From Verrucomicrobiaceae bacterium (GTDB taxonomy: Bacteria; Verrucomicrobiota; Verrucomicrobiia; Verrucomicrobiales; Verrucomicrobiaceae): a stretch of DNA of 64,000 bases. Where the stretch lies: assembly GCA_016795365.1 (NCBI GenBank), contig JAEUHN010000042.1, positions 62,001-126,000 of the forward strand. Reading direction: 5' to 3'. The notes below the pieces were generated by a model. The model saw only the letters and a list, made by a program, of their open reading frames with translations, did not search any database and was not told the origin of the DNA. Shown here piece by piece: positions 30,930 to 49,270 of this stretch (positions are counted from its first letter, which is position 1; each line of letters opens with the position of its first letter). The translations under genes and the position numbers were made by a program.

Positions 30930-30950
30930 GAGGTCAATGGACGTGAAGGG

Positions 30951-31277: not shown

Positions 31278-31326
31278 TTGGCGTTGTTGGGTTGTCTTGG
31301 TTGCGATGTGTGTGGCAAACAGGTCG

Positions 31327-33789
31327 TCAAGGGTGGGTGAGGCGGATGAACCGGCTCCCACTGGGATTGAGTATCGAGACATGCTTTTGGCCACCGCTCG
31401 TCGTGATGGGCAGCGCGGAGGTCGTCCAACCTGTCGGGCTGAGATCAGCGCTCTCCTCCAAGACCCAGCCGATGGCTGATTCCGGCCAGGCAAAACCGAT
31501 GGTGCCCGGTGTGGTGTTTGCGATGCCCACGATGGGAACGAAGTTTGCCACCAGCGCGCGGTTCGTAGCCGCGTTGAAGGAGAAGCTGTTGCTGCTGCTC
31601 ACCACGGTGCCGGCTTCGGTCCAGCCGGTGAATTGATAGCCTGCGGCGGGTGTGGCGAGCAGTGTCACCACGCCGCCGGTGGCGTATCCGCCGCCTCCGC
31701 TGACACTGCCGCCTGGCGCGAAGGATGGCGTCGTCGTGACGGTAAAGCCTGCGGCGAAGGTTGCCTGGAGCGTGCGCTGATTCAGCAGGGTGAACGTGTA
31801 GGCGGACGTGGTGCTGACGGTATTGCCACCTTCCTTCCAGTTGAGGAAGACATAGCCTGGCTTCGCTGTCGCCGTGGCGGTGACGCTACTGCCGATGATG
31901 AAGGTGCCAGCGCCTGCCACGGTGCCCATCGCGGTGGAAGAACTGGTGAGCGTGAGCTGATACGACGGCTGAAAATTTGCGACGAGCGTGCGATTCGCCT
32001 CCGCAGGAAAAGAATAGAGCGCAGACGAACTCACGATGGTGCCACCTTCGGTCCAGTTCACGAATGCGTAGCCATTTTTGGCCGTGGCGGAGAGGTTCAC
32101 CACGGCATCGAGCGCGAAGGTGCCCGCACCGCTGACACTGCCGCCATTCGCTGAGGAAGATGTGGCGGCGATGGCATAGCTAGTGGGCACATCCGCCGAG
32201 AGCGTGAGCGCGAGATCGCCCGTGCCGCTGTAGTAGCTGTTCCCGAGTCGGCGATAGTGCGCGTTGTTGCCACCCGCGCCGGTGGCGTGGCCCCAGGTGA
32301 GTGGATAGCCGTATTGTGAGGCTTCGATCTGAATCCAATAACCAACGCCTGCTGTGGCGACGAACGATGTCGGCAGCGTGACTGAGTAATCATACATCTG
32401 CACTCCGCCGACCAGTTCCGCAGCGGTTTGATTCGCGTTGCCGGTGACGGTGTATTTCTTGAGATGCGGGTTCACCAGGTCGGGGTAGAAGCCGTTGGCC
32501 GTGGAGCCGTAGATTTTGATGTTGAACTCCACCACTGGATTGGCCGCCGAGTTGTTGCCGATGTAGCCCCCGCGCCAGCGCAGATGCGAGATGCCCGTGG
32601 TGGTGGCCAGTGTGAACTTCTCAAAGCGATACTCCATGCCGTCCACGTTCCCATCCGGCGCGAGATACGAGGAGAGCAGCAGCGTGCCGGAAGTCGTCGT
32701 CGGCTGGGAAAAAACGATGCCGAGATTGCTGGCGGATGAAGTGAAGTTCGCGACGAGATCGCGGTCTCCCGTGGCGGTGAAGGTGTAGCTCGCGCTCGCA
32801 CTCACCGGCACGCCATTTTCGGTCCAGTTGACGAAATTGTAGTTCGCGGAAGGCGTCGCCTGCACGGTGACGCTGCTGCCATTCACAAAACTGCCGCCGC
32901 CATCCGTATTGCCACCTGTGAGCGGCGAGGAGGAGGTCGTGATGAGCGACCCAGTGGCGAAATTGGCCACCAACGTGCGGTTTCCCGTCACGGTGAAGGT
33001 GTAGTTCGGATTCGTGCTGACCACGATGCCGTTCTCCGTCCAGTTCACGAAGGCAAAGCCAGCGTTCGGCGTGGCGATGAGCGGTGCAGCGGCGTTTTGC
33101 GGATAGAGGCCCGCATTCGTGACCGTGCCGCTGCCGATGGGTGATTCAGTCGCCGCGATGCTGAAAGTCGGCCCATCAATGGTGACGATGCTGAACGCCG
33201 CGTCACCCGGCGCATACTGGAAATAGAAATCCGCCTGCCCGGCGATGCGCCGGAAGTGCGAGCCATTGCCTGTGCCCGCCGCGAATCCCCAATACGGCAG
33301 CCCGTTGGCAAACTCGGCCTCGATCTGCACCCAGTAGAGCTTTCCTGCCTGCGCCTGAAACACCGTTGGTAGCGTGAAGTGATAATCAAACATCTCCACG
33401 CCGCCAAACAGCCCCGCGCTCGTCTCCCCCGCTTTGTTTCCCGTGTCGTAGGCGATCAGCGTCGCAGGCGTGCCCGGGTAGCCCGGCCCCAGATGCGGCT
33501 GCGACAAGCCCGGCGTGGATTCATAGATCGACACGCGGAAGTTCACGATGTCTCCGCCCCAGTAAGCCATCTGCGGATCATAGCCGCCTCGCCAGCGAAT
33601 CTCCGTCACCGCCTGCGCCGTAGGCACGCTGAATGAGTCCCACACGAACTGATCGTTGTCCGTCCCATTCGGCTGATAGCGCGACGATGCCCGCAGCACT
33701 CCGCTGCCATCATGCGGCTGTTCAAAGACGACGCCCGCCTGTGCGACGAGCGAAGTCAGGAGCAGTAAGAATATGAGGAAGCGTTTCAT
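31327..33789 (-). CDS. Large secreted InlB-repeat protein, redox-operon member
   Basis: This 820-residue protein starts at the ATG at 33789, with a signal peptide (MKRFLIFLLLLTSLVAQA), just four bases after the b561 stop. It contains two copies of a roughly 190-residue beta domain, the first starting GVVFEQPHDGSG and the second GIVFSQPTTTSG, each with an RWRGGY motif. Five divergent InlB B-type repeats are placed two after the first copy and three after the second, each ending in a variant of NRTLVANF. The last 60 residues form the shared C-terminal module ending FIRLTHP. Such repeats are common in secreted adhesins. Its role in the redox operon is unknown; the gene spacing indicates co-expression. 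Confidence 0.82.
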   Translation of the reverse strand: MKRFLIFLLLLTSLVAQAGVVFEQPHDGSGVLRASSRYQPNGTDNDQFVWDSFSVPTAQAVTEIRWRGGYDPQMAYWGGDIVNFRVSIYESTPGLSQPHLGPGYPGTPATLIAYDTGNKAGETSAGLFGGVEMFDYHFTLPTVFQAQAGKLYWVQIEAEFANGLPYWGFAAGTGNGSHFRRIAGQADFYFQYAPGDAAFSIVTIDGPTFSIAATESPIGSGTVTNAGLYPQNAAAPLIATPNAGFAFVNWTENGIVVSTNPNYTFTVTGNRTLVANFATGSLITTSSSPLTGGNTDGGGSFVNGSSVTVQATPSANYNFVNWTENGVPVSASASYTFTATGDRDLVANFTSSASNLGIVFSQPTTTSGTLLLSSYLAPDGNVDGMEYRFEKFTLATTTGISHLRWRGGYIGNNSAANPVVEFNIKIYGSTANGFYPDLVNPHLKKYTVTGNANQTAAELVGGVQMYDYSVTLPTSFVATAGVGYWIQIEASQYGYPLTWGHATGAGGNNAHYRRLGNSYYSGTGDLALTLSADVPTSYAIAATSSSANGGSVSGAGTFALDAVVNLSATAKNGYAFVNWTEGGTIVSSSALYSFPAEANRTLVANFQPSYQLTLTSSSTAMGTVAGAGTFIIGSSVTATATAKPGYVFLNWKEGGNTVSTTSAYTFTLLNQRTLQATFAAGFTVTTTPSFAPGGSVSGGGGYATGGVVTLLATPAAGYQFTGWTEAGTVVSSSNSFSFNAATNRALVANFVPIVGIANTTPGTIGFAWPESAIGWVLEESADLSPTGWTTSALPITTSGGQKHVSILNPSGSRFIRLTHP

Positions 33790-33793
33790 GATC

Positions 33794-34510
33794 TCAGTCG
33801 TCATCGTGCTTGCGACCCTGCTTGCCTTTGTCGCCCTCGTTTTCGCCAAGCTGCAAAGTCACTCCGATGCCCGGCAGTATGACTGTGGCCGTGCTGGCGT
33901 TGTGTGCGGCAAACAGCGCCGCGATCCACACACCGGCCACGATGGCGATCACCACGCCCCAGACCGCGTGACTGGATGAGATGGCATCCTCCGCCTTGCC
34001 CGACTTTTTCCCCGTGACCATGGCGAGCGAGATATTCTCCCGATGCCGAATCGTGTGCCAAGCCAGCCCGGCCAGATGCATAACGATGACCATCAGCAAG
34101 CCCCAGGCAAAAACTTCATGCAATTCTTCGAGCGCTTCACCACCGGTGCCGATGCCCGAGATGAACAAGGCGGGCACCAGCAGAAACATCAGCACTGCCG
34201 CCACCGCCGAGCCAGGATTGTTCCCCGCATACAGCTTCGTCTTCGATACCAACGCGCTGATCAGGTAGCCGATGACTTCACGCGGATGCACCGGAAAGCT
34301 GGCGAACCGCGAGTAGCGCGAGCCCACGATTCCCATCACCACGCGCATGCCCAGCAAGAACAACGCGACGATGCCAAACAGCATGTGCAGCTGAAACAAC
34401 GGCGCATGATCATCGACCAGGAAGCCGATGGCGATGGCCGCACTGAGCGAGCCGGCAAAGGCCCAGTGAAAGAGGCGGGCAGGGATGTCCCAGACGAGAA
34501 TTCGATTCAT
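33794..34510 (-). CDS. Cytochrome b561-type membrane protein
   Basis: This 238-residue protein starts at the ATG at 34510 (MNRILVWDIPARLFHWAFAG), which matches the conserved N-terminal V-W-D-x2-R-x2-H-W signature of the bacterial b561/Ni-Fe-hydrogenase b subunit family. Four to five membrane helices carry candidate heme His ligands in RLFHWAF, FQLHMLFG, LEELHEVFAW and VIVMHLAGLAWH. The C-terminus has an extra helix and a charged tail (NEGDKGKQGRKHDDD). The family transfers electrons between quinones and periplasmic partners. It is the first gene of the likely b561-InlB-fccA-fccB operon, so it may exchange electrons with FccA/FccB; the direction is unknown. Confidence 0.85.
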   Translation of the reverse strand: MNRILVWDIPARLFHWAFAGSLSAAIAIGFLVDDHAPLFQLHMLFGIVALFLLGMRVVMGIVGSRYSRFASFPVHPREVIGYLISALVSKTKLYAGNNPGSAVAAVLMFLLVPALFISGIGTGGEALEELHEVFAWGLLMVIVMHLAGLAWHTIRHRENISLAMVTGKKSGKAEDAISSSHAVWGVVIAIVAGVWIAALFAAHNASTATVILPGIGVTLQLGENEGDKGKQGRKHDDD

Positions 34511-34776
34511 GATGTGTGGGTGCTGGCGGTTTTCACCACTGCCTTGCTGTCGCGAGCTGGTGGCATCATGGATACGTGTATCCTCCCACCCATGCGTGAT
34601 GTAGCACATGATGGTTTGGCCATGCAGCCAATCTGCGCGTAGCCGAGCGCAAGATTGAGCCGCCGCCGATGAGTCCCTCTACACAACATCGGCAGCGGAG
34701 TCAGGCCGCTGATGGCCGGTATGTTATCTCGATCCATATCGCGAAGCGCCAAGGCATGAGCAGAAGTGACGAGGCA
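34511..34776. other. Promoter region of the redox operon
   Basis: These 266 bases separate the RND pump gene from the b561 gene. GGATAC-GT-GTATCC at 34570-34583 has perfect 6-base half-sites and lies about 60 bases upstream of b561, a possible operator. No coding region is credible. Confidence 0.35.
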
Positions 34777-37700
34777 TTACATTAATGGGACGGCCGCATC
34801 AGGAATGGCTTCTGGGTCAGTTCTTGGTGCTACAGCGGAGATTCTGCCCTCACTACTCAGAGCCTGCCAGCTCATTACCCAGCGATAAAGAACGGGCAAC
34901 AGCACGAGCGTGAGGAAGGTGCTGCTGAGGATGCCGCCAATGACGACCGTTGCCAGCGGGCGCTGCACTTCGGCACCGGGACCCGTGGCGATGGCCATGG
35001 GGATGAAGCCGAGCGCAGCGACCATAGCGGTCATCAAGACGGGACGGAGACGCGTGATGGAGCCTTCGATCACGGCATCGCGTAGCGAGCGGCCTTCTTC
35101 GAGCAGCTCGTTGAAGTAGGTGACCATCACCAGGCCGTTGAGCACGGCCACACCACTGAGCGCGATGAAGCCGACGGCGGCGGTGATGGAGAACGGCATG
35201 CCACGCAGCCACAGCGCGACCACACCACCGGTGAGTGCCAAGGGAATGCCCGTGGCGATGACGAAGGTCTGCTTGAGGCTGCCGAACGACATGAAGATCA
35301 GCAACAAGATCAACACCAGCGAGGCGGGCACCACGATGGCGAGACGCTGCCGCGCTTCGTTGAGGTTCTTGAACGAGCCGCCGAACTCGAAGGTGTAGCC
35401 CTCGGGCAGCTTGAGTTCCTTTTGTAGCCGCGCCGTGGCTTCGTTCACGAAGCCCTCCATGTCACGATCCTTCACGCTGACCATGAGGCCCACCTTCCGC
35501 TGTGTCAGCTCATGCGCGATGGGTTCCACCACTTGTTCGCGCTTGAAATCAACGACCGTGCCGAGCGGCAGCAGGCCGTTCTCGCCGACACGAATCGGCA
35601 GTGCGGCGATCAGCTTCTCATCGGCGCGTTGTTCATCAGGAAGACGCACCACGATGTCGTAGCGACGATTGCCATCCATCATCGTGCCCACGGTTTCACC
35701 GCCGAGTGCGACGCTGACAGCTCGGTTCACTTCGGCAGCGGAGAGGTTGCGCTTCAGCATCTCGCGACGCTTCACATTGATCACGAAGTTGGTGGTGCGA
35801 CCATCGACTTCCAGTTCAGCATCGCCACCGGGCACGCTGGAGACGATCTGCTTCGCCTGACGCGCGACCTTCTCCAACTGATCGAAGTCGGAGCCAAAGA
35901 TCTTCAGCGACAACTCGGCCTTGGAGCCTTCCAGCATCTCGTTAAAACGCATCTCGATGGGCTGCGCGAACTCAAAGTTATGTCCAGGCACTTCCTTGTT
36001 AATCGCGGCTTCGATCTGCTCGCAGAGTTCCTTCTTGTTCTGCGGACGGCCTGCGGTGCGCGGCCATTCCTTGAGCGGCTTGTAGAAGATGTAGAAGTCG
36101 TTCTCGTTCGGCCCCATCGGGTCGGTGGCCACCTCGCTGGTGCCCACGCGATCAAAGACATAAGTCACTTCCGGGAAGTTCTTCAGCACGATCTTCTCAG
36201 CCTGCAACTGCATGGCCAGTGACTTGTCGAGGCTCATGCCCACCTCCTTGTAAACCATGGTGGTGATCGCGCCTTCATCCAGCTTCGGCACGAACTCCGC
36301 GCCCAGCGTGCCATACAGTGCCACGGCTCCGGCGAAGAGTGCGATGCCGCCCGCGACGGTGAGCCAGCGCAGCTTCAGCGCGATGCCGAGCGAGGGACGA
36401 TAGATCGCCTTCGCCGCGCGGATCATCCAGTTGTCCTCTTCGGAAATTGATCCGCCGAGGAAGAACGAGCACAGCACTGGCATGAGCGTCAGCGACAAGA
36501 TCAAGGCACCAACCAGCGCGAGGATGACGGTCATCGCCATCGGATGGAACATCTTCCCTTCCACACCACTGAGGCTGAGGATCGGCAGATACACGATGGT
36601 GATGATGAGCACGCCGAAGAACATCGGCTGGCCCACTTGCTTCGCCGCACGCAGCACCACTTTGCTGCGTTCTTCCGCATTCAGGACACGGCCCAGATGA
36701 TGCTGCTTCTCGCCGAGCTGACGCACGATGTTTTCCACCATCACGACCGCGCCATCAATGATCAGACCGAAGTCCACCGCGCCGAGCGACATGAGATTGC
36801 CCGAGATGCCGTAGTAGTTCATGCCGGTGATTGCGAAGAGGAACGACAGCGGAATCGCGAGCGCCACGATGATCGCCGCACGCCAGTTCCCGAGCAGAAG
36901 CAGGAGCACCACGATCACGAGCGCGGCTCCTTCAAAGAGATTGTGCTTCACGGTGCCGATGGTGCGATCCACCAGCTCGGAGCGTTGATACACACTGGTG
37001 AGCTTCATGCCTGCGGGCAGTTTCATGCGCACTTCCTCAAGACGCGGTGCCACACGCTGGCACACCACGCGTGCGTTCTCGCCCGAGAGCATCATCACGG
37101 TGCCCAGCACGCATTCCTCACCGTTGTAGGTCGCGGCTCCGGTGCGGTAGCGTTCACCAAGTTCCACCTTCGCGAGGTCCTTCACACGAATGGGCTCCAC
37201 TGCCGCGCCATACTTCACGGGCAGATCAGCAATCTCATCTGGCGACTGCACACGGCTCACGGCGCGGATGGTCAATTGCTTGCCGTCCTTCGAGATGATG
37301 CCGCCGCCCGCGTTCTCTGCGTTGGCACGAATCACGTCGGCAAGTTCAGCGAGCGTCAACGATGCAGCGCTGAGCTTGGCAAGATCAGGCTCCACCACGA
37401 CCTGGCGTTGATAGCCGCCGCTGCTGTTGATCTCGGCTACGCCAGGCACGGTGCGCAGCATCGGCTTCACGATGTATTCCTGCGCTTCACGCAGTTGCAT
37501 CAGCGCCTGCGCCTGATCAGCGGGTCGCTCTTTCGCATCCGGTGCCCAGCTCACGGTGTAGTAGAAGATCTCGCCGAGGCCGGTGCTGATTGGCGCGAGC
37601 TTCGGTGAGACACCGGCAGGCAATTGATCGAGCACACCTTGCAGACGTTCGGCCACGAGCTGGCGCGAGCGATAGATGTCGGTGCCATCCTCGAAGTTCA

Positions 37701-37983
37701 TCGTCACCTGCGAGAGGCCGAACTTGGTGATGGACCGCATCTCCGACACACCGGGCAGTCCTTGCATCTCCATCTCGATGGGGCGCGTGACCGCCTTCTC
37801 CGATTCCTCCGGCGCCAGCGCAGGAACCTCGGTATTGATCTGCACCTGCACGCCGGTGAGGTCTGGCACGGCATCAATCGGCAGCTTGATCACGGAATAG
37901 ATGCCCGCACCGAGCAAGGCGGCGGCAAGCATGAGCACGAAGGCTCGCTGACGGAGTGAGAACTCCAGAATCTTGTCAATCAT
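34777..37983 (-). CDS. cusA: CusA/CzcA-type heavy-metal RND efflux pump
   Basis: This 1068-residue inner-membrane RND transporter fits heavy-metal efflux pumps (CusA, CzcA) in length and start (MIDKILEFSLRQRAFVLMLA). Key segments are AVPDLTGVQVQINTEVP, LMSLGAVDFGLIIDGAVVMVEN with the proton-relay-type Asp of helix 4, GAEFVPKLDEGAI and, in the second half, LIFMSFGSLKQTFVI. A Met-poor pore region argues that Co/Zn/Cd-type substrates are also possible, so CusA is used loosely. A Shine-Dalgarno-like GGAGG precedes the ATG. Its TolC partner is 15 bases upstream, but the usual periplasmic adaptor (CusB/CzcB) is missing here. Confidence 0.92.
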   Translation of the reverse strand: MIDKILEFSLRQRAFVLMLAAALLGAGIYSVIKLPIDAVPDLTGVQVQINTEVPALAPEESEKAVTRPIEMEMQGLPGVSEMRSITKFGLSQVTMNFEDGTDIYRSRQLVAERLQGVLDQLPAGVSPKLAPISTGLGEIFYYTVSWAPDAKERPADQAQALMQLREAQEYIVKPMLRTVPGVAEINSSGGYQRQVVVEPDLAKLSAASLTLAELADVIRANAENAGGGIISKDGKQLTIRAVSRVQSPDEIADLPVKYGAAVEPIRVKDLAKVELGERYRTGAATYNGEECVLGTVMMLSGENARVVCQRVAPRLEEVRMKLPAGMKLTSVYQRSELVDRTIGTVKHNLFEGAALVIVVLLLLLGNWRAAIIVALAIPLSFLFAITGMNYYGISGNLMSLGAVDFGLIIDGAVVMVENIVRQLGEKQHHLGRVLNAEERSKVVLRAAKQVGQPMFFGVLIITIVYLPILSLSGVEGKMFHPMAMTVILALVGALILSLTLMPVLCSFFLGGSISEEDNWMIRAAKAIYRPSLGIALKLRWLTVAGGIALFAGAVALYGTLGAEFVPKLDEGAITTMVYKEVGMSLDKSLAMQLQAEKIVLKNFPEVTYVFDRVGTSEVATDPMGPNENDFYIFYKPLKEWPRTAGRPQNKKELCEQIEAAINKEVPGHNFEFAQPIEMRFNEMLEGSKAELSLKIFGSDFDQLEKVARQAKQIVSSVPGGDAELEVDGRTTNFVINVKRREMLKRNLSAAEVNRAVSVALGGETVGTMMDGNRRYDIVVRLPDEQRADEKLIAALPIRVGENGLLPLGTVVDFKREQVVEPIAHELTQRKVGLMVSVKDRDMEGFVNEATARLQKELKLPEGYTFEFGGSFKNLNEARQRLAIVVPASLVLILLLIFMSFGSLKQTFVIATGIPLALTGGVVALWLRGMPFSITAAVGFIALSGVAVLNGLVMVTYFNELLEEGRSLRDAVIEGSITRLRPVLMTAMVAALGFIPMAIATGPGAEVQRPLATVVIGGILSSTFLTLVLLPVLYRWVMSWQALSSEGRISAVAPRTDPEAIPDAAVPLM

Positions 37984-37998
37984 GGTGATGCCTCCGGT

Positions 37999-39273
37999 TT
38001 AGTTCTTAGCGACAGGAGCGGTGCTGCTGAGAAACTTCAGCCCGGTGAGCAGTTCGAGGTCCTGCAGGTTGGCGATGGCTTCACTGCGCGTGGAGAGCAG
38101 CGCATCGAGTGCGTCGAGATAGCTCTTCTGCAGCTCGATGTAAGTCGTCACCGGAATCGCGCCGAGCTTGTAGTGCTGGTTGCCGAGTTGTGCGGCTTCG
38201 CTGAACCGTTGCAGCGAATCGCTGCGCCATTGCGACATCTCTTCGAGCTGTGTGGCATACGTCGAAGCCTTCGCGACGACTTGCTTCTCCACCTCGCGTG
38301 TGGCCACGGCAAACGAAGCTTGTGCCTGCTGCTGGCGTGCTTCGGCAGCGGCGACGTTGCCTTTGTTGCGATTCCACAGCGGCAGCGGAATGCTCACCGA
38401 GATGCCCGCAGTGGTTTCTTTGTCGCTGCCCGCGCGTTGCGAGCTGACGAAGGGTTGCACGGTGATCGCTGGCTTGCCTTCGTTGTAGGCAAGGCTCACA
38501 GCGAAGCCCTGCTGGCGCAGTTCCGCCTCACGTGTGCGCAGATCGAAGTTGTTCTTCATCGCGGCTTTCAGCAAGGCCGTGAGGTCTGGTGCCTCCGGCA
38601 ACGTGAGGTCCGTCTTCGCAATGGTTAGCGCGGTCTCTGGACGGACTCCACGCAGCAGGTTCAGCTCGAGACGCGTGTTGTTCAGTTCCTGCTTCATCAG
38701 GCTCGTCTGTCGCGTGAGTGAAAGCACCGTGGCTTCCAGAATGCGAGTCTCCACCAAGGGCGCAGGTCCCGAAGGATCGCGCTGCACCAGCACGGCCAGC
38801 ACATCCTGAATACGCGTGGAGGCTTCATCGCTCGCAGCGACTTTCTCCTGCGTGATGAGTGCCTTCACAGCGAGCGCACGCACTTTGGTCGCGAGCGAGT
38901 TCTTGAACGATGCGAGGCCAAGCTCAGCGATCTCGATCTGACGATCCGCGATGGCCTTGCGAAGACCGAGGCGACCCGCCCATTCGAAGGTTTGCGAGAT
39001 GGCCGCCTGCCACGCCGGACCATCGCCGGTGTCTTTCACCGACCAGCGCGACAGCTCCGTGGTGAGTGTTGGATTGCTCTGCTTGCCAGCGTCGATGCGC
39101 TGACCTTTGGCGATGGCGAGCTGCGCTTCATAGAAGGCAATCTCGGGATTGTGAGCCACCGCGCTCGCTACAATCGTGGCGATGGATTGTGGTGTGGTGG
39201 CAGTGGTTTCGTTGGCGAACGACAGATGGGAAACGAGGCAAAGAGAAAGGATGAAAAGGGGGCGTGAAAACAT
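37999..39273 (-). CDS. TolC-family outer-membrane efflux protein (CusC/CzcC type)
   Basis: This 424-residue protein starts at the ATG at 39273, with a signal peptide (MFSRPLFILSLCLVSHLSFA). Long amphipathic helices with TolC-type repeats (IAFYEAQLAIAKGQRIDAG, FDLRTREAELRQQGFAVSLA, AEARQQQAQASFAVATREVE) build the periplasmic tunnel. It pairs with the RND pump 15 bases downstream. The substrate is probably metal, from the pump type. A short exported protein is encoded 143 bases upstream. Confidence 0.9.
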   Translation of the reverse strand: MFSRPLFILSLCLVSHLSFANETTATTPQSIATIVASAVAHNPEIAFYEAQLAIAKGQRIDAGKQSNPTLTTELSRWSVKDTGDGPAWQAAISQTFEWAGRLGLRKAIADRQIEIAELGLASFKNSLATKVRALAVKALITQEKVAASDEASTRIQDVLAVLVQRDPSGPAPLVETRILEATVLSLTRQTSLMKQELNNTRLELNLLRGVRPETALTIAKTDLTLPEAPDLTALLKAAMKNNFDLRTREAELRQQGFAVSLAYNEGKPAITVQPFVSSQRAGSDKETTAGISVSIPLPLWNRNKGNVAAAEARQQQAQASFAVATREVEKQVVAKASTYATQLEEMSQWRSDSLQRFSEAAQLGNQHYKLGAIPVTTYIELQKSYLDALDALLSTRSEAIANLQDLELLTGLKFLSSTAPVAKN

Positions 39274-39416
39274 GGGTGTAGAAGTGAGAGTTGAGTTTGA
39301 GAAGGCGGGCGCAGATGTGCGGTCCCGGTCAGCGCGCGATGGCGCGGGTGCGTGTGCCTTGATGGCTGTTCGCATCCGTGGCGGATGCGGCGAACTCGCA
39401 AGGCGCTAGGCCTTCT

Positions 39417-39911
39417 TCAAATCAACATCTGCACGGTGCATAGGCCGATAAGGCCTGGCGATGCGATCACTTCGTCCCGCGATGAGGCGTGGACGAGCGT
39501 GGTGTGGGTGCGAGCAAGATCAAGCCTTGTATCCACCCATGTAAAGGGCAGCGGCTGCGGTGCATGTTTGCTTCCGGCAGATTCGATCACGCTGCTGCGC
39601 TCGTAGCGATCTGTGGCGTTCTTGAACGAAAGCTTGTGATCAGGGTGCGTGCCGCCTTGCGATTGCGCGAAGGTCAACACCGCGCGTGTCAGCAGACCGT
39701 GCTGATGACCTTGGGGTAACGCGGTGTCGTTCTGCCCGAGCTTGCGCTGATGACGCAGCATCAGCGTGAGCCCGTCCGAGCCAGCGGTGAACTCCACCTT
39801 GTGCGAGCCATCAATCCACACTGCCAGCGCAGCCGCCGCAGGAAGGACCGGCGTTTGCGACACCACGAACAGCATCAGCACAATCACGCGCAGGGCGAGA
39901 TGACGGAGCAT
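39417..39911 (-). CDS. Small exported protein, paralogue of the 49271-49765 protein
   Basis: This 164-residue protein starts at the ATG at 39911. The signal peptide (MLRHLALRVIVLMLFVVSQT) is followed by a short beta segment (HKVEFTAGSDGLTLMLRHQ) and a His/Gln-rich stretch (ALPQGHQHGLL). It has the same length as the protein at 49271-49765. Both share the H-x-V-x(4-6)-G-x-L-x2-x-L-x-H pattern, an inner DH motif and a hydrophobic C-terminus. It precedes the TolC-CusA genes, so metal sensing or binding in the periplasm is possible but unproven. No named family was recognised. Confidence 0.7.
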   Translation of the reverse strand: MLRHLALRVIVLMLFVVSQTPVLPAAAALAVWIDGSHKVEFTAGSDGLTLMLRHQRKLGQNDTALPQGHQHGLLTRAVLTFAQSQGGTHPDHKLSFKNATDRYERSSVIESAGSKHAPQPLPFTWVDTRLDLARTHTTLVHASSRDEVIASPGLIGLCTVQMLI

Positions 39912-40306
39912 GGTGAACGATGTGCAGCAAAGCATGGTGAGAGAAAGACAATACGCGCATACTTCTTTCGCGCGCATGATGTTGAGATTGCTAGCAAGCC
40001 AGTCGAAGCCCGCAACTACCGGGCTTGTAGCGTGGATTATCGTTTCGTAATCATCGACACAACGTGTTATGGAACCGGTATGAGTGGTGTCGCATGTGTG
40101 TGCACGAGGCACATGGCCACTGCTCTCGCGTGCAGGTTTGTGAGGTTCCTTCAGTTCCAACCGTGTTATCCGCAATTAAAGAGGATGCCGGTTTGTTTGA
40201 CAAAAACGCAATGATTTGATCGTCAACGTCATATCATGCAAATGCATCTGGCGCTCGACGGAAGTGGGTGTGAACTCAGATATGGCGATGCTTCAGTTTG
40301 GATGCC
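39912..40306. other. Intergenic region with strong inverted repeat before the efflux genes
   Basis: These 395 bases hold no credible gene. A 7-bp perfect stem with 7-nt loop (AAGCCCG/CGGGCTT, 40006-40026) lies about 95 bases upstream of the small exported protein gene. A second short dyad, GATTA/TAATC, lies downstream. They may be operators or leader structure for the efflux cluster. Confidence 0.45.
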
Positions 40307-41293
40307 TCACGGCTTCACCAGACGGAAGAATTTGCCGCCCGTCGGATTCGCGATCACGGCACTACTTTGTGCTCCGGCTGTGGTGATGGGTAGGCTTGAA
40401 TTGACCCAACTGCCGGGACTCAAATCTGCGCTCTCCTGCAAGATCCAGCCTGCAAGCGATGAGGGCCAGTTCAGGACGAGGCTACCGTCCGATGCTGGAG
40501 GCGTGAATGCCATCACGGGTAGCTCAGCAAAGTTCGCAACGAGTGTGCGAGCGCTGCCGACAGTGAAGGTGTAGTTGGCTAGCGCACTGGCTGCGACAGT
40601 CGCCTCGGTCCAGTTCACGAAGTAGTAACCGGGACTCGCGGTGGCGATGAGCGTGGCGTTGCTGCCCGATGGATAGGAGCCTCCGCCGGTGACGGTCCCG
40701 CCGATGGGCGATGATGGGGTCGCAGTGACATTGAACGTCAGAGGAGGCGTGGGTTCCAATGAGACATTGTCATAGTGGACCAGCGCCTGATCGTTCTGCT
40801 GGGAGGCACCGATGGTGCCCAAGTAGATCACATGCACTCCGGGAGTGAGCGTCAGCGTCACTGTCTGATTGAGGTGCCACGCGCTCGGTGAACTTTCGCT
40901 CATGTAGGTTTTTGAGAAGAGAGCCTGTGATGCCGTGACATACCAGTTGTCGATGGCGATCTTGGCTCCGTTGATCAGCGTTCCCGCATTGGCGTTTTCG
41001 AGGTAGTAGTCGAAGGTCAGCGTGAAGGTGCCTCCGCTGCCCGCATCGAAGCTTTGGAAGACGTAGTATTTGTGCGTGTTGGCATTGTGAAGCCCCGCTG
41101 TGCTGAACCTCAAGTCACCGTTAAAAACGCCCGCGTTTTCCGTGCTGCCGTTCATTCCTGACCAGTTCGTCGGCAGGCTGATCGCAGGTCCCACGGGATC
41201 GTAGGTCTGGGAAAAGTCTCCGTTTGTCAGGAGATTGGCGTGGGCGTGAATTGCCCCCCAAGTCAGGAGGAGAAGTGCGAGTCGGGTTTTCAT
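40307..41293 (-). CDS. Secreted protein with one InlB repeat and the shared C-terminal module
   Basis: This 328-residue protein starts at the ATG at 41293 (signal peptide MKTRLALLLLTWGAIHAHA). Residues 20-190 look like a carbohydrate-binding jelly-roll (NLLTNGDFSQTYDPVGPAIS, a common CBM-like opening in PVC proteins). A single InlB B-type repeat follows (NWTEATVAASALANYTF, RTLVANF). The last 60 residues are the shared module ending FFRLVKP. It begins 17 bases after the upstream InlB-repeat gene, so both are probably co-transcribed. It may bind surfaces or glycans. Confidence 0.8.
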   Translation of the reverse strand: MKTRLALLLLTWGAIHAHANLLTNGDFSQTYDPVGPAISLPTNWSGMNGSTENAGVFNGDLRFSTAGLHNANTHKYYVFQSFDAGSGGTFTLTFDYYLENANAGTLINGAKIAIDNWYVTASQALFSKTYMSESSPSAWHLNQTVTLTLTPGVHVIYLGTIGASQQNDQALVHYDNVSLEPTPPLTFNVTATPSSPIGGTVTGGGSYPSGSNATLIATASPGYYFVNWTEATVAASALANYTFTVGSARTLVANFAELPVMAFTPPASDGSLVLNWPSSLAGWILQESADLSPGSWVNSSLPITTAGAQSSAVIANPTGGKFFRLVKP

Positions 41294-41310
41294 GTGCTGA
41301 CAATGAAAAT

Positions 41311-43251
41311 TCATGGCCGTGCGAGACGGAAGAACAGGCTGCCTGTGGGGTTCGGGATGGAGATTTGGTTTTGCCCGCCGCTGGTGGTCACTGGCAGTGC
41401 CGAGTTCACCCAGCTCGCGGGGCTCAGATCAGGGCTCTCCTGCAAGACCCAGCCCGTCGCGCTTTCTGGCCACGAGAACCCCAAACCTCCTCCTGCCGGC
41501 GCTGAAATGCTGACGACTGGCAGCGCGATGAAGTTCGCCACGAAAGTGTAGTCGGCGCTGGCGGTGAAGGTGATGGGATTAGTGCTGCCTGCGGGAGCGC
41601 CACTGAGGGTCCAGTTGCTGAAGATATAGCCTGAAGATGGAGTCGCGGTGAGCGTGACGGTGGCTCCATTGCCAACGACGCCTGAGCCGCTGACGCTGCC
41701 GCCTGCGAGGGGAGCAGCGCTGGCGGTGATGGTGCGATTGGTGGCGATGTAGGCGGCCGTGAGCGTGGTGTGATTCGTGATCGTGAAGGAGTAACTAGGG
41801 CTGGTGCTCTTGATGGTGCTGCCTTCCTTCCAGTTCGCAAAGGCATAGCCGACCGCAGGCGTGGCATTGACGGTGACATTGGAACTGTGCGCAAAGGTTC
41901 CCGCTCCGGTATTGGTGCCTCCTGCCACGGGAGATGAGGCGAGGGTGAGCACGGGATTGTTCGGCTCGAAGTAGGCGGTGATCGTGGTGCCGTAGCAGAC
42001 CATGTGCTTGAGCGTGGGATTGGTGCCCACAACATGCGGTGCGCCGCTGATGTCGCCGAGACCCGCGCCCTGCTTCCAATACGCGAAGTGATAGCCGGGA
42101 TAAGGTGTGGCATTGATGGTGAGCAGCGTGCCGCCATAGTAGCTGCCGCCGGAGAGTCCCGCCGTGCCTGCGATGACCATCGTGCCGGATGAGACCGGTG
42201 AAACGACGCCGTTGATGAAGCTCGTGTAAGCCGGATAGGCGAAGTTGGCCACGAGCGTGCGGTCTGCCGTCGCGGTGACTTCAAACACCTGCGTGGCAGC
42301 GTTGAAGGGGAGGTTCACGATCTCGCCATTCTCCGTCCAGCCGACGAACGACAGGCCGTCCGCCGGCGTGACATCAAGTTCGCGGATCTCGCCCGCGTTG
42401 ACCATGCCTGCACCACCAACGGTCCCGTTCACTGAGGGATTCGCGATGGCGTTGATCATGTAGGGGCCGGTGTTGGGGCCTGAGAAGTTGGCGGTCAGCG
42501 TCTTGTTTCCATCGGCGGCAAAGGAGAAACTGGCGCTCGTGCTGACAATGACTCCAGCTTCGGTCCAGTTCAGGAAGGTGCGTCCGCTGGCGGCGGTGGC
42601 GGTCGCCGTGACATTCGCTCCCCCTGAATAGGTGCCGCCACCCGTGACTGTGCCGCCCGCCGCTGGAGCTTTCGCAAGAGTGATCGTCACGGGCACGGTG
42701 GCCTGATTGAGCAGCGTGAACGCGACATCGCCGCCCGCGCCGACGTAGCGGTAGTCGCCCGTCACGGCAGGCACTTGTGCGAGGTGTGAGCCATTGCCGC
42801 CCGTGCCCGCGCTCCATTGCCAGTAAGGATAGTAGTTGTCCACCAAGCCAATGACCTGGAGCCAGTAGCCCTGTCCTCCCGTGAGCACGAAGCCCGCTGG
42901 CAGCGTGAACTTGTAGTCATACACGCCTGGCGTTGCGGTCGGTGTCTCGCTCGCCACGCCATTTGTATGCCACACGGTGCCGCCAGGAATGGCAATGGTG
43001 TTGATGCTGATCTGAAAATCCAGCGGCGCAGGACCTGAACGCGGGCCACGCCACTGAATCTCCCGCAGCGTCTGCGTTGTTGGCGTGCCAAAAGAGTCCC
43101 ACACGAACTCCTCCAGATTGCTGCCGCCATTGCTGTAGGTGGAGGAAAGGTAGCCCATCGATCCCGCATTGGGCGACTGCTGGTAGATGACTCCTGCCAG
43201 GGTGAAGCCGGACAGGGCAAATACCGTCAAGGTGAGAGCGACGATCTTCAT
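41311..43251 (-). CDS. Secreted protein with five InlB repeats
   Basis: This 646-residue protein has a signal peptide (MKIVALTLTVFALSGFTLA). An N-terminal domain of about 170 residues (GVIYQQSPNAGSMGYLSS, EFVWDSFGTPTTQTLREIQW) is homologous to the domain doubled in the 31327-33789 protein. Five divergent InlB B-type repeats follow, each centred on a (F/Y)-x-x-W-(T/K)-(E/Q) core and ending in ANF-like strands. The C-terminal module ends FFRLARP. It lies 30 bases after a small exported protein gene and 17 before the next InlB-repeat gene. A cell-surface or adhesive role is inferred. Confidence 0.82.
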   Translation of the reverse strand: MKIVALTLTVFALSGFTLAGVIYQQSPNAGSMGYLSSTYSNGGSNLEEFVWDSFGTPTTQTLREIQWRGPRSGPAPLDFQISINTIAIPGGTVWHTNGVASETPTATPGVYDYKFTLPAGFVLTGGQGYWLQVIGLVDNYYPYWQWSAGTGGNGSHLAQVPAVTGDYRYVGAGGDVAFTLLNQATVPVTITLAKAPAAGGTVTGGGTYSGGANVTATATAASGRTFLNWTEAGVIVSTSASFSFAADGNKTLTANFSGPNTGPYMINAIANPSVNGTVGGAGMVNAGEIRELDVTPADGLSFVGWTENGEIVNLPFNAATQVFEVTATADRTLVANFAYPAYTSFINGVVSPVSSGTMVIAGTAGLSGGSYYGGTLLTINATPYPGYHFAYWKQGAGLGDISGAPHVVGTNPTLKHMVCYGTTITAYFEPNNPVLTLASSPVAGGTNTGAGTFAHSSNVTVNATPAVGYAFANWKEGSTIKSTSPSYSFTITNHTTLTAAYIATNRTITASAAPLAGGSVSGSGVVGNGATVTLTATPSSGYIFSNWTLSGAPAGSTNPITFTASADYTFVANFIALPVVSISAPAGGGLGFSWPESATGWVLQESPDLSPASWVNSALPVTTSGGQNQISIPNPTGSLFFRLARP

Positions 43252-43281
43252 AGGGACTTGGGCTTTGCGCGAGGATGCGAT

Positions 43282-43671
43282 CTACTTGATCACGGCTTTC
43301 GCTGTGCCCTGATCGATGATCGCGCCCAGCTTGCTGTAGAAGGTGATCGGGCCAGCGTAACTGCCGTCAGTTTGCAGCGCGAGGCGAGCATCACCATTGG
43401 TCTCGTAGTTGGGCGTGTAGAACCAGGTGAGGCTGGTGCCATACAGTGTGCCGGGATAACGCTTGCCACTGATATTGACATTGCCCTGATAGGCCACACC
43501 CCAGCTGCCCACGCGCACTGCTTTGACGGCAGTGAACTTCATGGTGCCAGACTTCTTCGGTGTGACGAAGGTCCCAGTGACGGAGGGAGCAGCTGCAAAT
43601 ACGGTGCCGATACTGAGTGCAAGGATCGCGATGACAGAGGCGAGGATGGTGCGGCGATGGTTCGTTCTCAT
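43282..43671 (-). CDS. Small secreted protein of unknown function
   Basis: This 129-residue protein starts at the ATG at 43671. It has a signal peptide (about 1-27, RRTILASVIAILALSIGTVF) and a beta-rich body (TGTFVTPKKSGTMKFTAVKA, WGVAYQGNVNISGKRYPGTL, SYAGPITFYSKLGAI). I recognise no family. It is the first of a three-gene run with two InlB-repeat genes, 173 bases after the giant gene. Confidence 0.75.
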   Translation of the reverse strand: MRTNHRRTILASVIAILALSIGTVFAAAPSVTGTFVTPKKSGTMKFTAVKAVRVGSWGVAYQGNVNISGKRYPGTLYGTSLTWFYTPNYETNGDARLALQTDGSYAGPITFYSKLGAIIDQGTAKAVIK

Positions 43672-43844
43672 GACGCTGTTGAGTTGGTTCTGGTTTGGGT
43701 GATGGAGGAGATCTTTTCAGCCGCCGCCGAAGAGAGAAGGGGCTTAACCCTCCTTTGTTGCTCCCAACCCTCCCAAGTCAGGTGCAATGAAATCGAGTGA
43801 AGCACCTCCTCTCGGCGGCGGCGGCACCGTAGAGCGGAGTCGTG

Positions 43845-46800
43845 CTATGGATGAGCGAGGCGATAGAAGGTCATTCCGCCCGCGCTGTTGATGGTGACAG
43901 TGCTCACATTGCCGACGGTGTTGATGACAGCGGTGGAGTTCGTCCAAGTTGCCAGGTCAGGGCTCTGCTGGAGCACCCAGCCGGTGGTGTCGCTGGTCCA
44001 CTGGAGCTGCAGGGTGCCGGGGGCGGTGACGGTTTGCGTGATCTTCGGAATCGCGTTCGCGGTGGGCGTGGCGAGAGCGAAGGGCGAGAGGCTTGCGGTG
44101 GTGACCGTGATCGTGTCGTTCACCGTGTCCACGCGACCGACGAGCTGTTCCCACGCGCCGTTGGTGAAGTGACGGATCGTCAGTTTGGACTCGTCGTAGC
44201 CGGGCGGCAGCAGGGTGGCGTCGTAGTGGAAGACGAGCTTGATGCGACCATTGTGCGTGCCGCTGTAGGTGAGGTTCCAGAGCTGCGTGACGGTGCCGTT
44301 AGGAGTGTCGAAGGTGGGCAGGAGAAACTCGCCGTCGTCTTCGCGCTCCTGGAGTTCGAGATCATCGGCTTCCGTGAACTCACCAAAGAAGGTGCCCTCA
44401 GTGTTGATGTCTTCGAACTCAAAGTCGAGACCGCCAACATGCTGGCTGCCGCCATTGCAACTGCCGCCACCGGTGTTGTTGCCGTTGCCTCCGCCGGTGA
44501 TGGTGACCGTGGTGCCGGTAAGCAGGCTGAGCACAATATCAAAGTTCAAGCTCTGGCCATCCGCAATGGTGCCGAGGTCCCACCGTTGACCACCCGAGAC
44601 CCAGCGATTGGCCGGAGCGAAGTAGTCCCGGTTCTTGCGAGCGAGGAAGGGCGCGCTCTGCCAGTTGTTCTCGATGGACAGATGCACACCATCGCTGGGC
44701 TTGCCGACGGAGTGATCGTCAATGCCATTGCCCTCGGTGCCATAGGCTCCGATCTCAAACGCGGTCGGTGCCACCTTGGAATGGAAGGCGATGTAGTCTT
44801 CCAATCCCGTGGTGCTCGCGCCATCGGCTCCGACGCTGGTCTGATCCACTCCTGCGAGCGTGGCGTCGTATTGATACGGGCTGAGCTTGCCTGCATACGA
44901 GCGGTTGTCATACACGCCGCGCTGCGAGGTGAAGCCGTGCAGCAGTTGGAAAAGCTGCACATTACTCACAGAGCCGCCGCTGATGTTCTTCACCGTGAAG
45001 GTCTGGTTCATCACATAGCGGTTGCTGTTCACCGACTTCGGAGCACCGGCACCGCTGGCCTGCGTAACGCCCATCGGTGTGCCGGTGACGGTGTCCACCA
45101 TTTCAAATCGCAGGGTCACTTCCAGGTCGTTGTTGGCGATGATGGAGCGTGCGATGGGCAGGCCGTCGAGATTCGTGCCGACGAGGTGAATGCCTTCCAC
45201 GACATGGAAGTCGGAGTTCGTCTTCCAGTCGGGGAACATGAAGTTCGGCTCCATCCACTTGGGCGAGACCGTGTTCCCATTGCTGCGTGTGTAAGCAACC
45301 GCACTGCCCCATTCGCCGCTGAGGTATTCGCGACCGACAAAACCAGGTGTGTTGTCGAGAAGGAAATCCGAGTAGCCGAAGTCCGTGAGCGTGATGTTCC
45401 AGTTCGGATTCGAGAGCGTGAGCGAGCCACCGAAGTTGCCGCCGGGGCTGACGACGATGTCATCTATCAGGAACTTCTGCGCACCAGCGGGCAGGCTGGG
45501 CAGCTCAATGCGGATGGTGTCGAAGGGACCGTTCGCGGAGTTGAACGTGAGCTTGCCGCTCGGCAATGAATCGCCTGGAGTGACGGTGCCGTGCGCGATG
45601 GCCGTTCCGACGAGCACCGGCTGGCCGCTGCTGTTGTCATAGGCGGTGACTTGCACATCGGAAGGCACGGCAACGTTTAGGGCCTCGACGGTTGCGAAGG
45701 TGAGTTCCACACCGGTGAGCTGCATGTCGAACGCGACTTCGACCACGGTGCCGGTGTCGTTCGAAGGCGCGAGATACTTGCCGCTGAACTTCGAGAGCGT
45801 GTAGCTTGTGCTGCCTGCGTTCTCGATGGAGGGAGGGTTTGCATTCGGCGTGCTGAAGGTCGCGGTGATGCCTCCCGAAGTTTGAGCCAAGGGCATAGGC
45901 GCGTGAAGGGCGAGCAGTGGCGTGCCGGTATCGAAGTCGAAATGAACGCCCACTACGGGCGCTTCGAAGTTCGCGATGAACGTATCGCTGGCCGTTGGTG
46001 TGAAGGTGTAGCTCGCGTTCGTGCTAACGATGTTGCCCAGACCATCGGTCCAGTTCAGGAAGGTGAAGCCCGCATTGGCGGTGGCTGTCAGCGTGGTGCT
46101 GGTCCCGGACGGGATCGAGCCATCACCTGTCGTCAAACCTGCGCCCGGCGGCGACACATCCGTCAGGATCTCCACGCCTTCGGCGAAGTGCGCGACGAGA
46201 GTGGCGCTCGCCGCCGCAGGGAAGGCATAGACCGGATTGCTGCTCACCACGGTGGCACCGTTGGTCCAGTGGGTGAAGACGTAGCCCACAGCGGGGGTAG
46301 CGGTGAGCGTGACGTTCGAGCCGCTGTTGTAAATGCCCGCGCCCGTGACCGAGCCTCCAAGCGCAGGTGCAGCGCTGGTGGCGATGTTGAATTGCACCAC
46401 CTGCACGAAGTTCGCGACGAGCGAGCGGCTGGCAGTGGCGGTGAAAGTGTAGTCCGCGCTGCTGCTCACAATCGTTGCGCCTTGCGTCCAGTTGGTGAAG
46501 GCATAGCCGGGGTTCGGGATGGCACTGACGGTGACGCTGTCACCAATCAGATAGCTGCCTGCACCAAGGGCGTCGCCGCCCGCGACAGGAGCGGAGGCGG
46601 TGTTGATGTTCACGCCGCCAATGAGAGCGAAGTTTGCCACGATGGTGCGGTCTGCAGCCACCTTGAACGAGATCGGATTGTCAGCGCTGAACACGACACC
46701 GTTTTCACTCCAGCCAACAAACTCGTAGCCAGCGTTCGGGAAGGCATCGACCCGCGCATTCTCATTGAGCTTGTAGCTGGAGCTGTCCGTCTCCGTGGTG

Positions 46801-49076
46801 CCGCCTACGGCAGGAAAGACATCCGCTGTAACGTAATACACGCGGTTGAAGCTCGCGGTGAGCGTGACGTTGGCGCTGGCCGTGAAGGTGTAGCTCGGGT
46901 CAAGGCTGACTTGGGTGCCTCCGATCTTCCATTTGGCGAACTCATAGCCCTGCGCAGGGGTGGCCGTGACAGTTACACTCGAGCCATCGGCATACACTCC
47001 GGCACCCGACAAGGTGCCACCAGCAACGGGGCTGCTACTGGTGCTAATTGTGCGGAGTGTAGCGCCGATGACCGAGAAATTGGCGACGAGCGTCTGGTTC
47101 GCCGTGACGGCAAAGGTGTAGCTCGCATTAGTGCTGACCTGCGTGCCGTTCACCGTCCAGTTCACGAAGAAGAAGCCGGCGTTCGGCGTGGCGGTGAGGG
47201 TGGCATTGGTGCCCGAAACAAATGAGCCATCACCCGTGGTCGTGCCGCCTGCGACCGGCGCGGCGCTGGTGCCGATGGTGTAAGTCGGCAGCGCGGTGAA
47301 GTTCGCAACGAGATCGCGGTCAATGCCCGCAGCAAAGGTGTAGCTCGCGCTGTTGCTCACCGGTGCGCCCGTTTCAGTCCAGTTCGTGAAGGTGTAGCCA
47401 GCGTTCGGTGTTGCCACCACGGTGACGTTCGACGCATCATCATAGAGGCCGGCGCCTGTCGTGGTGCCACCGGCAACCGGTGCCGCGGCGGTCGTGATGT
47501 TCCACTGCATGACATCAGGCGCAAAGTTCGCGACCAGCGAATGGTTCACGTCCATCGCAAGCGTGTAGCTGGTGTTGGTGCTGACCACCTGCGCATTGTC
47601 CGTCCAGTTCAGGAACTTGTAGCCAGGGGCGGGCGTGGCGGTGACCGTGGCGTTCGTGCCGGGCGCATACGATCCGTCGCCCGTGGTCGTGCCGGTGCCG
47701 ACGGGTGACGCGGCGGTATCGAGCAAGGATTGCGCTGGCAGCGCTGCATTCACGGCAGCGATGCTCATCGTGTAGTTCTTCTGCACGTCAGGGTTGATAC
47801 CATCGCTGGCCGTGACGGTGAACTTATACTGACCGGAGGTGGTGGGCGTGCCGCTGAGGATGCCTGTGGCATCGTTGAAGCTGAGACCCGGGGGGACGGT
47901 GCCGTCGTGGGTGCAGGTGAAGGGCAGCGCGCCTTCCACCACGACAGCACGCGGCGCTATGGCTTTGTTCACCTTGCCTTCGCCCACGTGGTCAATGAGG
48001 CCCACGGGTTCATTCACATCCACGGCGGCCATTTGTGAGCCAGTGAACTCGCCCACGATCTCAAAATTGGCCATGTCATTGGTCACGGTCACCCATTCCC
48101 CTCCGACCATGTGATCATTGTAGGTCCTCATGCCAGTGCCATGAAGGTCATCCGCGCCCACGGCGTCAGCCATGGCTTCACCGCTCTCGGCATCCAACGG
48201 TCCTGTATATTTGTAGAACTCATAGCGGCGGGTGACGACTTCATCGCCGCCGGGCAGATCTTCGGGCGCGCCCGCAAGTTCGGCATTCGGCCCTGGGTCA
48301 CCGACGACATTCTTCTTTTGCAGGATGCGCCATTCGACTTCGACCTCGTCGGGCTCGCCCTTCTTCCAGTTTTTGTCGTTTGGATCAGCGGGGTCGTCGG
48401 AGACGAGTTCGCGCAGCTTGATCTTCTCCGGGTTGTGCGTGGTGGTCTTGATCTCCTTCACCCAGACAGCCTTGCCGAACTGCTTCACCGGTGGCGCAGG
48501 GGGAGGCGGTGGAGCGATGACGGCCACGACCTGCGCGGGTTGGGCAGCCACGGGGGGATAATACGTGAATGTGGGCGTGGAGACCTGCACCGCGCCGCCA
48601 TGCACGAGCGTGCCGGAGCCATTATCAATGAGCCAGTTGTAATGCACCGCCGAGGGCTGGACCTTGTAGCCGACACCAAAGTGTTCGCCGCCGAAGTTCA
48701 CAGCCGGATTGGTGAACATGTGGCCGTTCGTCGGAGCGATGGGTCCGCTCGGGATCGCTGTGTAGGCTGCCCATGTGCCGTTCGCGTTCTTCTTGCTCTG
48801 CCACTTGATGAAGCACTTCGGGTGCGCCGGATCGGTCTTGTCCTCCGTGATCTCGGGCACGCCGTAGTGGTTGTAGTTGTAGGTGTAGGTGATGTCGGTC
48901 GAGTGGCAGTCGTCGAGTTCGATCTCAAAGCCGTGACACTCATGTCCTGTGTCGTTGACGGTGTCGAAGTTGTTAATGCTGCCGTAGGCGATGCTGGCAT
49001 CGGCCCGGAAAGGTGTGATGGCCAGCAGGCATGCGATGAGAGCGCTGGCACGTGAGATGGGAGAAAGGCAGTTCAT
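43845..49076 (-). CDS. Giant secreted protein with putative-Ig domain and eight InlB repeats
   Basis: This 1743-residue exported protein starts at the ATG at 49076 (signal peptide MNCLSPISRASALIACLLAI). A Cys/His/Tyr-rich N-terminal domain (about 28-175, with GHECHGFEIELDDCHSTDI) leads to a Pro-rich spacer (VIAPPPPPAPPVKQFG, about 187-202). A putative-Ig (He_PIG-like) domain follows at about 365-442 (PPGLSFNDATGILSGTP). Eight divergent InlB B-type repeats occupy about 451-1035. Beta-rich domains follow, including FDFDTGTPLLALHAP and a calcium-like acidic stretch. The last 60 residues carry the shared module ending FYRLAHP. It is the largest gene here and probably a surface-exposed adhesin or matrix protein. 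No enzymatic motif is visible. Confidence 0.85.
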   Translation of the reverse strand: MNCLSPISRASALIACLLAITPFRADASIAYGSINNFDTVNDTGHECHGFEIELDDCHSTDITYTYNYNHYGVPEITEDKTDPAHPKCFIKWQSKKNANGTWAAYTAIPSGPIAPTNGHMFTNPAVNFGGEHFGVGYKVQPSAVHYNWLIDNGSGTLVHGGAVQVSTPTFTYYPPVAAQPAQVVAVIAPPPPPAPPVKQFGKAVWVKEIKTTTHNPEKIKLRELVSDDPADPNDKNWKKGEPDEVEVEWRILQKKNVVGDPGPNAELAGAPEDLPGGDEVVTRRYEFYKYTGPLDAESGEAMADAVGADDLHGTGMRTYNDHMVGGEWVTVTNDMANFEIVGEFTGSQMAAVDVNEPVGLIDHVGEGKVNKAIAPRAVVVEGALPFTCTHDGTVPPGLSFNDATGILSGTPTTSGQYKFTVTASDGINPDVQKNYTMSIAAVNAALPAQSLLDTAASPVGTGTTTGDGSYAPGTNATVTATPAPGYKFLNWTDNAQVVSTNTSYTLAMDVNHSLVANFAPDVMQWNITTAAAPVAGGTTTGAGLYDDASNVTVVATPNAGYTFTNWTETGAPVSNSASYTFAAGIDRDLVANFTALPTYTIGTSAAPVAGGTTTGDGSFVSGTNATLTATPNAGFFFVNWTVNGTQVSTNASYTFAVTANQTLVANFSVIGATLRTISTSSSPVAGGTLSGAGVYADGSSVTVTATPAQGYEFAKWKIGGTQVSLDPSYTFTASANVTLTASFNRVYYVTADVFPAVGGTTETDSSSYKLNENARVDAFPNAGYEFVGWSENGVVFSADNPISFKVAADRTIVANFALIGGVNINTASAPVAGGDALGAGSYLIGDSVTVSAIPNPGYAFTNWTQGATIVSSSADYTFTATASRSLVANFVQVVQFNIATSAAPALGGSVTGAGIYNSGSNVTLTATPAVGYVFTHWTNGATVVSSNPVYAFPAAASATLVAHFAEGVEILTDVSPPGAGLTTGDGSIPSGTSTTLTATANAGFTFLNWTDGLGNIVSTNASYTFTPTASDTFIANFEAPVVGVHFDFDTGTPLLALHAPMPLAQTSGGITATFSTPNANPPSIENAGSTSYTLSKFSGKYLAPSNDTGTVVEVAFDMQLTGVELTFATVEALNVAVPSDVQVTAYDNSSGQPVLVGTAIAHGTVTPGDSLPSGKLTFNSANGPFDTIRIELPSLPAGAQKFLIDDIVVSPGGNFGGSLTLSNPNWNITLTDFGYSDFLLDNTPGFVGREYLSGEWGSAVAYTRSNGNTVSPKWMEPNFMFPDWKTNSDFHVVEGIHLVGTNLDGLPIARSIIANNDLEVTLRFEMVDTVTGTPMGVTQASGAGAPKSVNSNRYVMNQTFTVKNISGGSVSNVQLFQLLHGFTSQRGVYDNRSYAGKLSPYQYDATLAGVDQTSVGADGASTTGLEDYIAFHSKVAPTAFEIGAYGTEGNGIDDHSVGKPSDGVHLSIENNWQSAPFLARKNRDYFAPANRWVSGGQRWDLGTIADGQSLNFDIVLSLLTGTTVTITGGGNGNNTGGGSCNGGSQHVGGLDFEFEDINTEGTFFGEFTEADDLELQEREDDGEFLLPTFDTPNGTVTQLWNLTYSGTHNGRIKLVFHYDATLLPPGYDESKLTIRHFTNGAWEQLVGRVDTVNDTITVTTASLSPFALATPTANAIPKITQTVTAPGTLQLQWTSDTTGWVLQQSPDLATWTNSTAVINTVGNVSTVTINSAGGMTFYRLAHP

Positions 49077-49270
49077 GAGATTTGATGGGAGAATGGGGGG
49101 CTGGGACGGCGGGCACACGGCATGGAATCACCTGCGAGGTGATGGTGGAGGCGCCGCATGAAGAAGTCCGGCAGGCCGCATCAAGGCGACCACGGGCTAC
49201 AGGCTTGGAGAGAAGGGAGGCTCTGAAGATGCCTCAAAGTTCCGACGAGCCATGCGGCTCAGGAGCGGTA

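Follow-up and report, generated by a model that had tools for sequence, protein, structure and literature searches.

The stretch of DNA analysed here (the window: 64,000 nucleotides of the genome of a Verrucomicrobiaceae bacterium, assembly GCA_016795365.1, contig JAEUHN010000042.1, positions 62,001 to 126,000) carries four minus-strand genes whose products open with a signal peptide, contain InlB-type repeats (PF18998, in all four) and close with one and the same C-terminal module. The four carriers and their module copies, the latter with the E-value of a profile built from the four, are as follows.

31327..33849, minus strand: carrier A, with a signal peptide, a DUF7901-like region in two stretches, five InlB B-repeats (PF18998) and the module
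31330..31539, minus strand: module copy A, the C-terminal 70 residues of the 840-residue InlB-repeat/DUF7901 protein, stop codon at 31327; E 7e-37
40307..41314, minus strand: carrier B, with a signal peptide, an unassigned N-terminal region, one InlB B-repeat and the module
40310..40522, minus strand: module copy B, the C-terminal 71 residues of the 335-residue protein; E 1.5e-35
41311..43251, minus strand: carrier C, with a signal peptide, a weak DUF7901 match, five InlB B-repeats and the module
41314..41523, minus strand: module copy C, the C-terminal 70 residues of the 646-residue InlB-repeat protein; E 1.5e-37; the copy modelled with AlphaFold2
43845..49118, minus strand: carrier D, with a signal peptide, a conserved N-terminal region, He_PIG, eight InlB B-repeats and the module; translation likely starts at MNCLSPISRASALIACLLAITPFRADA
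43848..44051, minus strand: module copy D, the C-terminal 68 residues of the 1757-residue InlB-repeat protein; E 2e-33

The gene for carrier C and the start of carrier B overlap by four bases. Translated from the minus strand, carriers A, B, C and D end in RLTHP, RLVKP, RLARP and RLAHP, each followed directly by the stop codon. A preliminary description of this DNA had proposed that the four proteins end in one common pattern, and a MAFFT alignment bears this out to the last residue: the common region of 68-71 residues has 19 invariant columns, with 40-61% identity to the first sequence. In a search of the whole genome, the profile of the four copies returned those four at E 1e-33 to 1e-37 and its next match at 1e-4, and chance likeness among the four C-termini is thereby excluded. 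None of the four modules matched a Pfam or NCBIfam family.

Searching with the profile of the four C-termini, as the preliminary description had advised, found matches across the Verrucomicrobiota that are mostly C-terminal and mostly in proteins with signal peptides. A broader profile, obtained by searching relatives, then the phylum, and then iterating, placed the module in 40 of the 115 Verrucomicrobiota genomes sampled. The window's own genome holds at least 23 copies and one other (G100) at least about 50, these counts being lower bounds because only part of the candidates was scored in the richest genomes. The restriction to InlB-repeat proteins suggested at the outset is true of all four window carriers and does not extend to the rest of the genome, where the broad profile finds the module on other bodies too. 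Tight patterns run against one genome from each of 84,980 prokaryote species matched in Verrucomicrobiota only, diverged members being invisible to such patterns, and the consensus module had no match on plasmids. No Pfam or NCBIfam family covered the module in 55 diverse members scanned against the family models, and our search of the open-access literature returned no publication that describes such a sorting domain in Verrucomicrobiota. The module is thus a new, previously undescribed domain family that is spread through the Verrucomicrobiota, exported and mostly terminal, and that Pfam and NCBIfam leave unannotated. In a tree of its copies, modules from one genome tend to fall together (22 label changes, where shuffling gave a mean of 39), as is expected equally from duplication within lineages and from the sharing of one partner.

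With full open frames rescored, 145 of 146 sampled proteins carry a single copy. The module ends within eight residues of the stop codon in 125 of the 142 cases in which a stop is visible (88%), compared with 2 of 40 (5%) for ordinary fn3 domains of Verrucomicrobiota, to which each protein family contributed one or a few; the C-terminal preference is therefore real and specific, yet not absolute. The remaining 17 modules (12%) are internal or N-terminal, some of them close behind the signal peptide (e.g. L165 and L196) and several leading into a TSP3-like stretch rich in Asp; the sampling, which started from C-terminal seeds and proceeded by score, may undercount such copies. The claim that the module is always C-terminal accordingly stands for the four window proteins and their close subgroup, which has no internal copy, and fails for the wider family, and the same division applies to internal occurrence as the finding that was to speak against a tag. 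Internal copies score below the window's group and occur only among diverged members. Proline is the last residue in 65 of the 125 terminal copies, and because prolines also follow several internal copies we take it to mark the edge of the domain and not to be a signal. A TSP3-like Asp-rich linker precedes 30 of the 125 terminal modules. Four proteins (L095, L097, L168 and L172) have the module before a TSP3-like stretch and share a similar C-terminus with an R-x-R-x-A-x-Y-L ending, suggesting one more protein family with an internal module.

That the carriers are secreted, as had been supposed, agrees with a simple heuristic rule by which 107 of 128 carrier frames have a signal-peptide-like start, compared with 83 of 300 control frames. 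The bodies that precede the module are unrelated to one another: they include GH2, GH10, an amylase-like region, M1 and M36 peptidases and chondroitinase B, as well as LamG, CBM96, CBM_4_9, BNR/sortilin propellers, PATR repeats and InlB repeats, and they may be short (a 148-residue frame in L047). A crude lipobox test for lipoprotein anchoring flagged 8 of 113 terminal-module proteins, several of which look spurious by eye. The N-terminal region of carrier D has relatives in 6 of 337 phylum genomes, its own included; among the homologues found by this region alone, L209, L210 and others end in the module, and L208 (genome G225) ends in a PKD-like stretch and has no module, so that the carrier D body can occur without it. 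DUF7901 bodies show C-termini with related-looking endings that the profile does not score, and among these bodies we found no clean exchange of a PEP-CTERM tail for the module. In two further D-type genes (L213 1892-7169, genome G001; L074 900-6177) the coding sequence is split into two overlapping frames of 1162 and 735 residues, which appears to reflect one frameshift, through sequencing error or decay.

An AlphaFold2 model of 72 residues, computed from an alignment of the window's copies with copies from named contigs, is confident (pLDDT 91, pTM 0.74) and nearly all beta, with predicted strands at 7-9, 16-21, 28-32, 48-50, 53-58 and 66-70 in a compact Ig/FN3-like beta-sandwich. Foldseek matched FN3 and Ig domains weakly (E above 0.1); VIA-align ranked FN3 domains of cytokine receptors highest (Z 6.3, rmsd 2.6 over 70 residues), with Ig domains nearly tied. 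The fold is thus likely Ig/FN3-like, and on the model we read the strand order as A-B-C-C'-E-F, with the G strand absent. The conserved residues are W20, W27, L29, S32, D34, W40 and F66-R68-L69; we infer that the W, W/Y, W and F-R-L positions belong to the FN3 core, and conservation alone would then demand no receptor. Neither match list contained a T9SS CTD, to which the module may be related all the same.

It is very probable, in our judgement, that the module is an exported, Ig-like end-domain. As to what such a domain does, our best explanation, offered tentatively, is that it is portable and extracellular and retains or anchors exported proteins through a putative surface partner. Proteins routed out of the cytoplasm by a Sec signal peptide would each carry a single Ig/FN3-like domain, in almost every case as their final domain. 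Once outside, this folded domain would be bound by a surface component, which may be a polysaccharide or LPS matrix or an outer-membrane receptor, and very different bodies would thereby be held at the cell surface. The domain, its position and single copy, the export signals, the diversity of bodies and the spread across the phylum are computed features of these sequences, from which we infer retention. The occasional N-terminal placement fits a binding domain better than it fits a strict C-terminal signal. Against retention, the C-terminal bias is stronger than binding alone would require and agrees equally well with a sorting signal or a cap; the conserved residues can be explained as a fold core; and the scores of the fold matches are moderate (Z about 6).

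In position, size, copy number, class of fold and variety of bodies, the module has its nearest described counterpart in the C-terminal domain of the type IX secretion system (T9SS CTD). The T9SS CTD is necessary and sufficient for export and is removed or processed by PorU. It is an Ig-like C-terminal sandwich of 60-100 residues in which the final strands bear the export signal and the very last one has a conserved basic residue (PMC4804311, PMC10202324). Like the type A form (PF18962/TIGR04183), the module would be an Ig-like sandwich placed at the very C-terminal end of numerous Sec-exported proteins that are unrelated to one another. It differs in having a single Arg, within FFRL, where T9SS motif E has Lys, in occurring in Verrucomicrobiota rather than Bacteroidota, and in being internal in 12% of copies of the broad family. 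Neither TIGR04183 nor PF18962 matched any of 55 module members at E 0.1, and SprA was found in none of 115 phylum genomes and none of 29 relatives, a count to be read with a control set that held no T9SS genome and stayed silent. We accordingly do not identify the module with the T9SS CTD, given the missing family match, the other phylum, the internal copies and the translocon that the search with its silent control did not find; a like function is compatible with this.

The preliminary description had recognised no PEP-CTERM-type system, and here the genome corrects it: two exosortases and nine separate PEP-CTERM matches are encoded outside the window. PEP-CTERM tails resemble the module as multi-copy C-terminal suffixes on diverse exported proteins of the same genome, but the module is a folded domain of about 70 residues that lacks the PEP motif, the transmembrane helix and the basic cluster. 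Exosortases occur in 39 of 40 module-bearing genomes and in 40 of 75 others (counted by eye from tables); since the module lacks every part of the PEP-CTERM tail, this co-occurrence probably reflects lineage and lifestyle or genome size. Identity with PEP-CTERM, LPXTG or GlyGly-CTERM signals was rejected, the module having neither transmembrane helix nor basic tail. With FN3/Ig domains (PF00041) it shares the predicted fold, W on strand B, an aromatic residue on C, W after C and aromatic-Arg on F, and it differs from them in lacking the final G strand and in being a single C-terminal copy instead of internal domains; PF00041 matched none of the 55 members at E 0.1.

What might the module be if it does not retain proteins at the surface? 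One alternative is a genuine sorting signal at the C-terminus, recognised by an outer-membrane machine dedicated to export or anchoring, much as the T9SS CTD is; the diverged internal copies would then have lost the role. We consider this unlikely, with the single copy, the 88% C-terminal placement, the export signals, the unrelated bodies, the many copies per genome and the predicted T9SS-CTD-class fold speaking for the sorting tag first proposed, and the 17 of 142 internal copies, some right behind a signal peptide, against it. T9SS CTDs are likewise Ig-like sandwiches of about 60-100 residues with their signal in the last strands (PMC4804311, PMC10202324), and the tight subgroup has an exact C-terminal end and a conserved last strand, F-(F/Y)-R-L. 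Our search found no candidate machine (for SprA, none in 115 genomes, the control being silent), and the terminal Pro, seen in 65 of 125 copies, may be a mere domain edge. Internal copies are confined to diverged members, so that a sorting role is still tenable for the window's tight subgroup. A somewhat different possibility, that the module is an inert structural cap or spacer which binds no partner and protects exported proteins that are long, repetitive or rich in beta structure against proteolysis and against aggregation through their edge strands, is also rather doubtful, if by no means far-fetched. It would account for conservation at likely core positions, for the many long and beta-rich carriers, for the TSP3-like Asp-rich linker ahead of 30 of 125 terminal modules and for the body homologue that has no module and ends in a PKD-like stretch. 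A cap need not, however, be one phylum-wide family on unrelated bodies, including ones as short as the 148-residue frame, and it does not predict the grouping by genome, though duplication alone could yield this.

Improbable, in our estimate, is a carbohydrate-binding domain related to F5/8 type C (discoidin) modules that targets its carriers to external substrates. A profile search of PDB sequences gave a partial match to the discoidin domains of a glucanase/chitosanase (E 1.5e-4, positions 7-59), resting on an 'L-W ... Y-x-L-Q-x-S-x-D ... W' stretch reminiscent of F5/8 type C (discoidin, CBM32-like) domains; two of 55 members matched F5_F8_type_C_2 in a weak, scattered and partial way; and several carriers are glycosidases or bear CBMs. 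We take the discoidin match as a sequence-based lead and not as membership, the matches being partial and none covering the full-length family profile. The module is about half as long, the structural matches favour FN3/Ig domains, the peptidase, propeller and InlB carriers have no common substrate, and discoidin-type modules do not as a rule sit exactly at the end of the chain.

The sets of adhesins and polysaccharide-degrading enzymes that Verrucomicrobiota export are very large, and the way in which such proteins reach the cell surface or stay there is, to our knowledge, largely unknown. The module, an unannotated C-terminal domain that many of them carry, would predict which exported proteins share one fate and offers a specific bait with which to look for a receptor or machine; even as a mere retention domain or cap, it is a common family missing from current annotation libraries. 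That Verrucomicrobiota have an undescribed system for sorting or anchoring at the outer membrane, one that works without T9SS parts and recognises a C-terminal, Ig-like domain akin to the T9SS CTD, seems to us unlikely; if real, it would serve, dozens to a genome, exported enzymes, adhesins and possibly multihaem cytochromes.

The last of these enters through the neighbourhood of the carriers, where a redox gene cluster (26968-34609) includes a multihaem cytochrome.

26968-29343: nine-haem cytochrome (nine CXXCH motifs), MtrC/MtrF-like match, signal peptide with no evident lipobox
26971..27198, minus strand: tentative, diverged fifth module copy at the end of that cytochrome, ending RFMRIEATRSTPAP; proposed from motif and neighbourhood conservation
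29667-30929: flavocytochrome c sulfide dehydrogenase-like flavoprotein
30951-31493: small c-type cytochrome frame
33794-34609: cytochrome b561-like protein

The C-terminus of the nine-haem cytochrome gave no score with the module profile, and we suggest only tentatively that it represents a fifth, diverged copy, one whose tail is longer. Multihaem cytochromes are neighbours of D-type InlB proteins, adjoining them or lying near them, both in the window and at L070 (seven CXXCH in that frame), L073, L077 and L211, and the cytochrome ends that can be read look like a diverged module (RFIRIEA, RFMRIEA). A CzcA-like RND efflux pump and an adjoining TolC-like outer-membrane factor are encoded at 34777-39375, between carriers A and B, and towards the end of the window (60713-63574) lies the gene for a 953-residue protein with YHYH, EF-hand-type and phosphatidylethanolamine-binding (PBP) matches.
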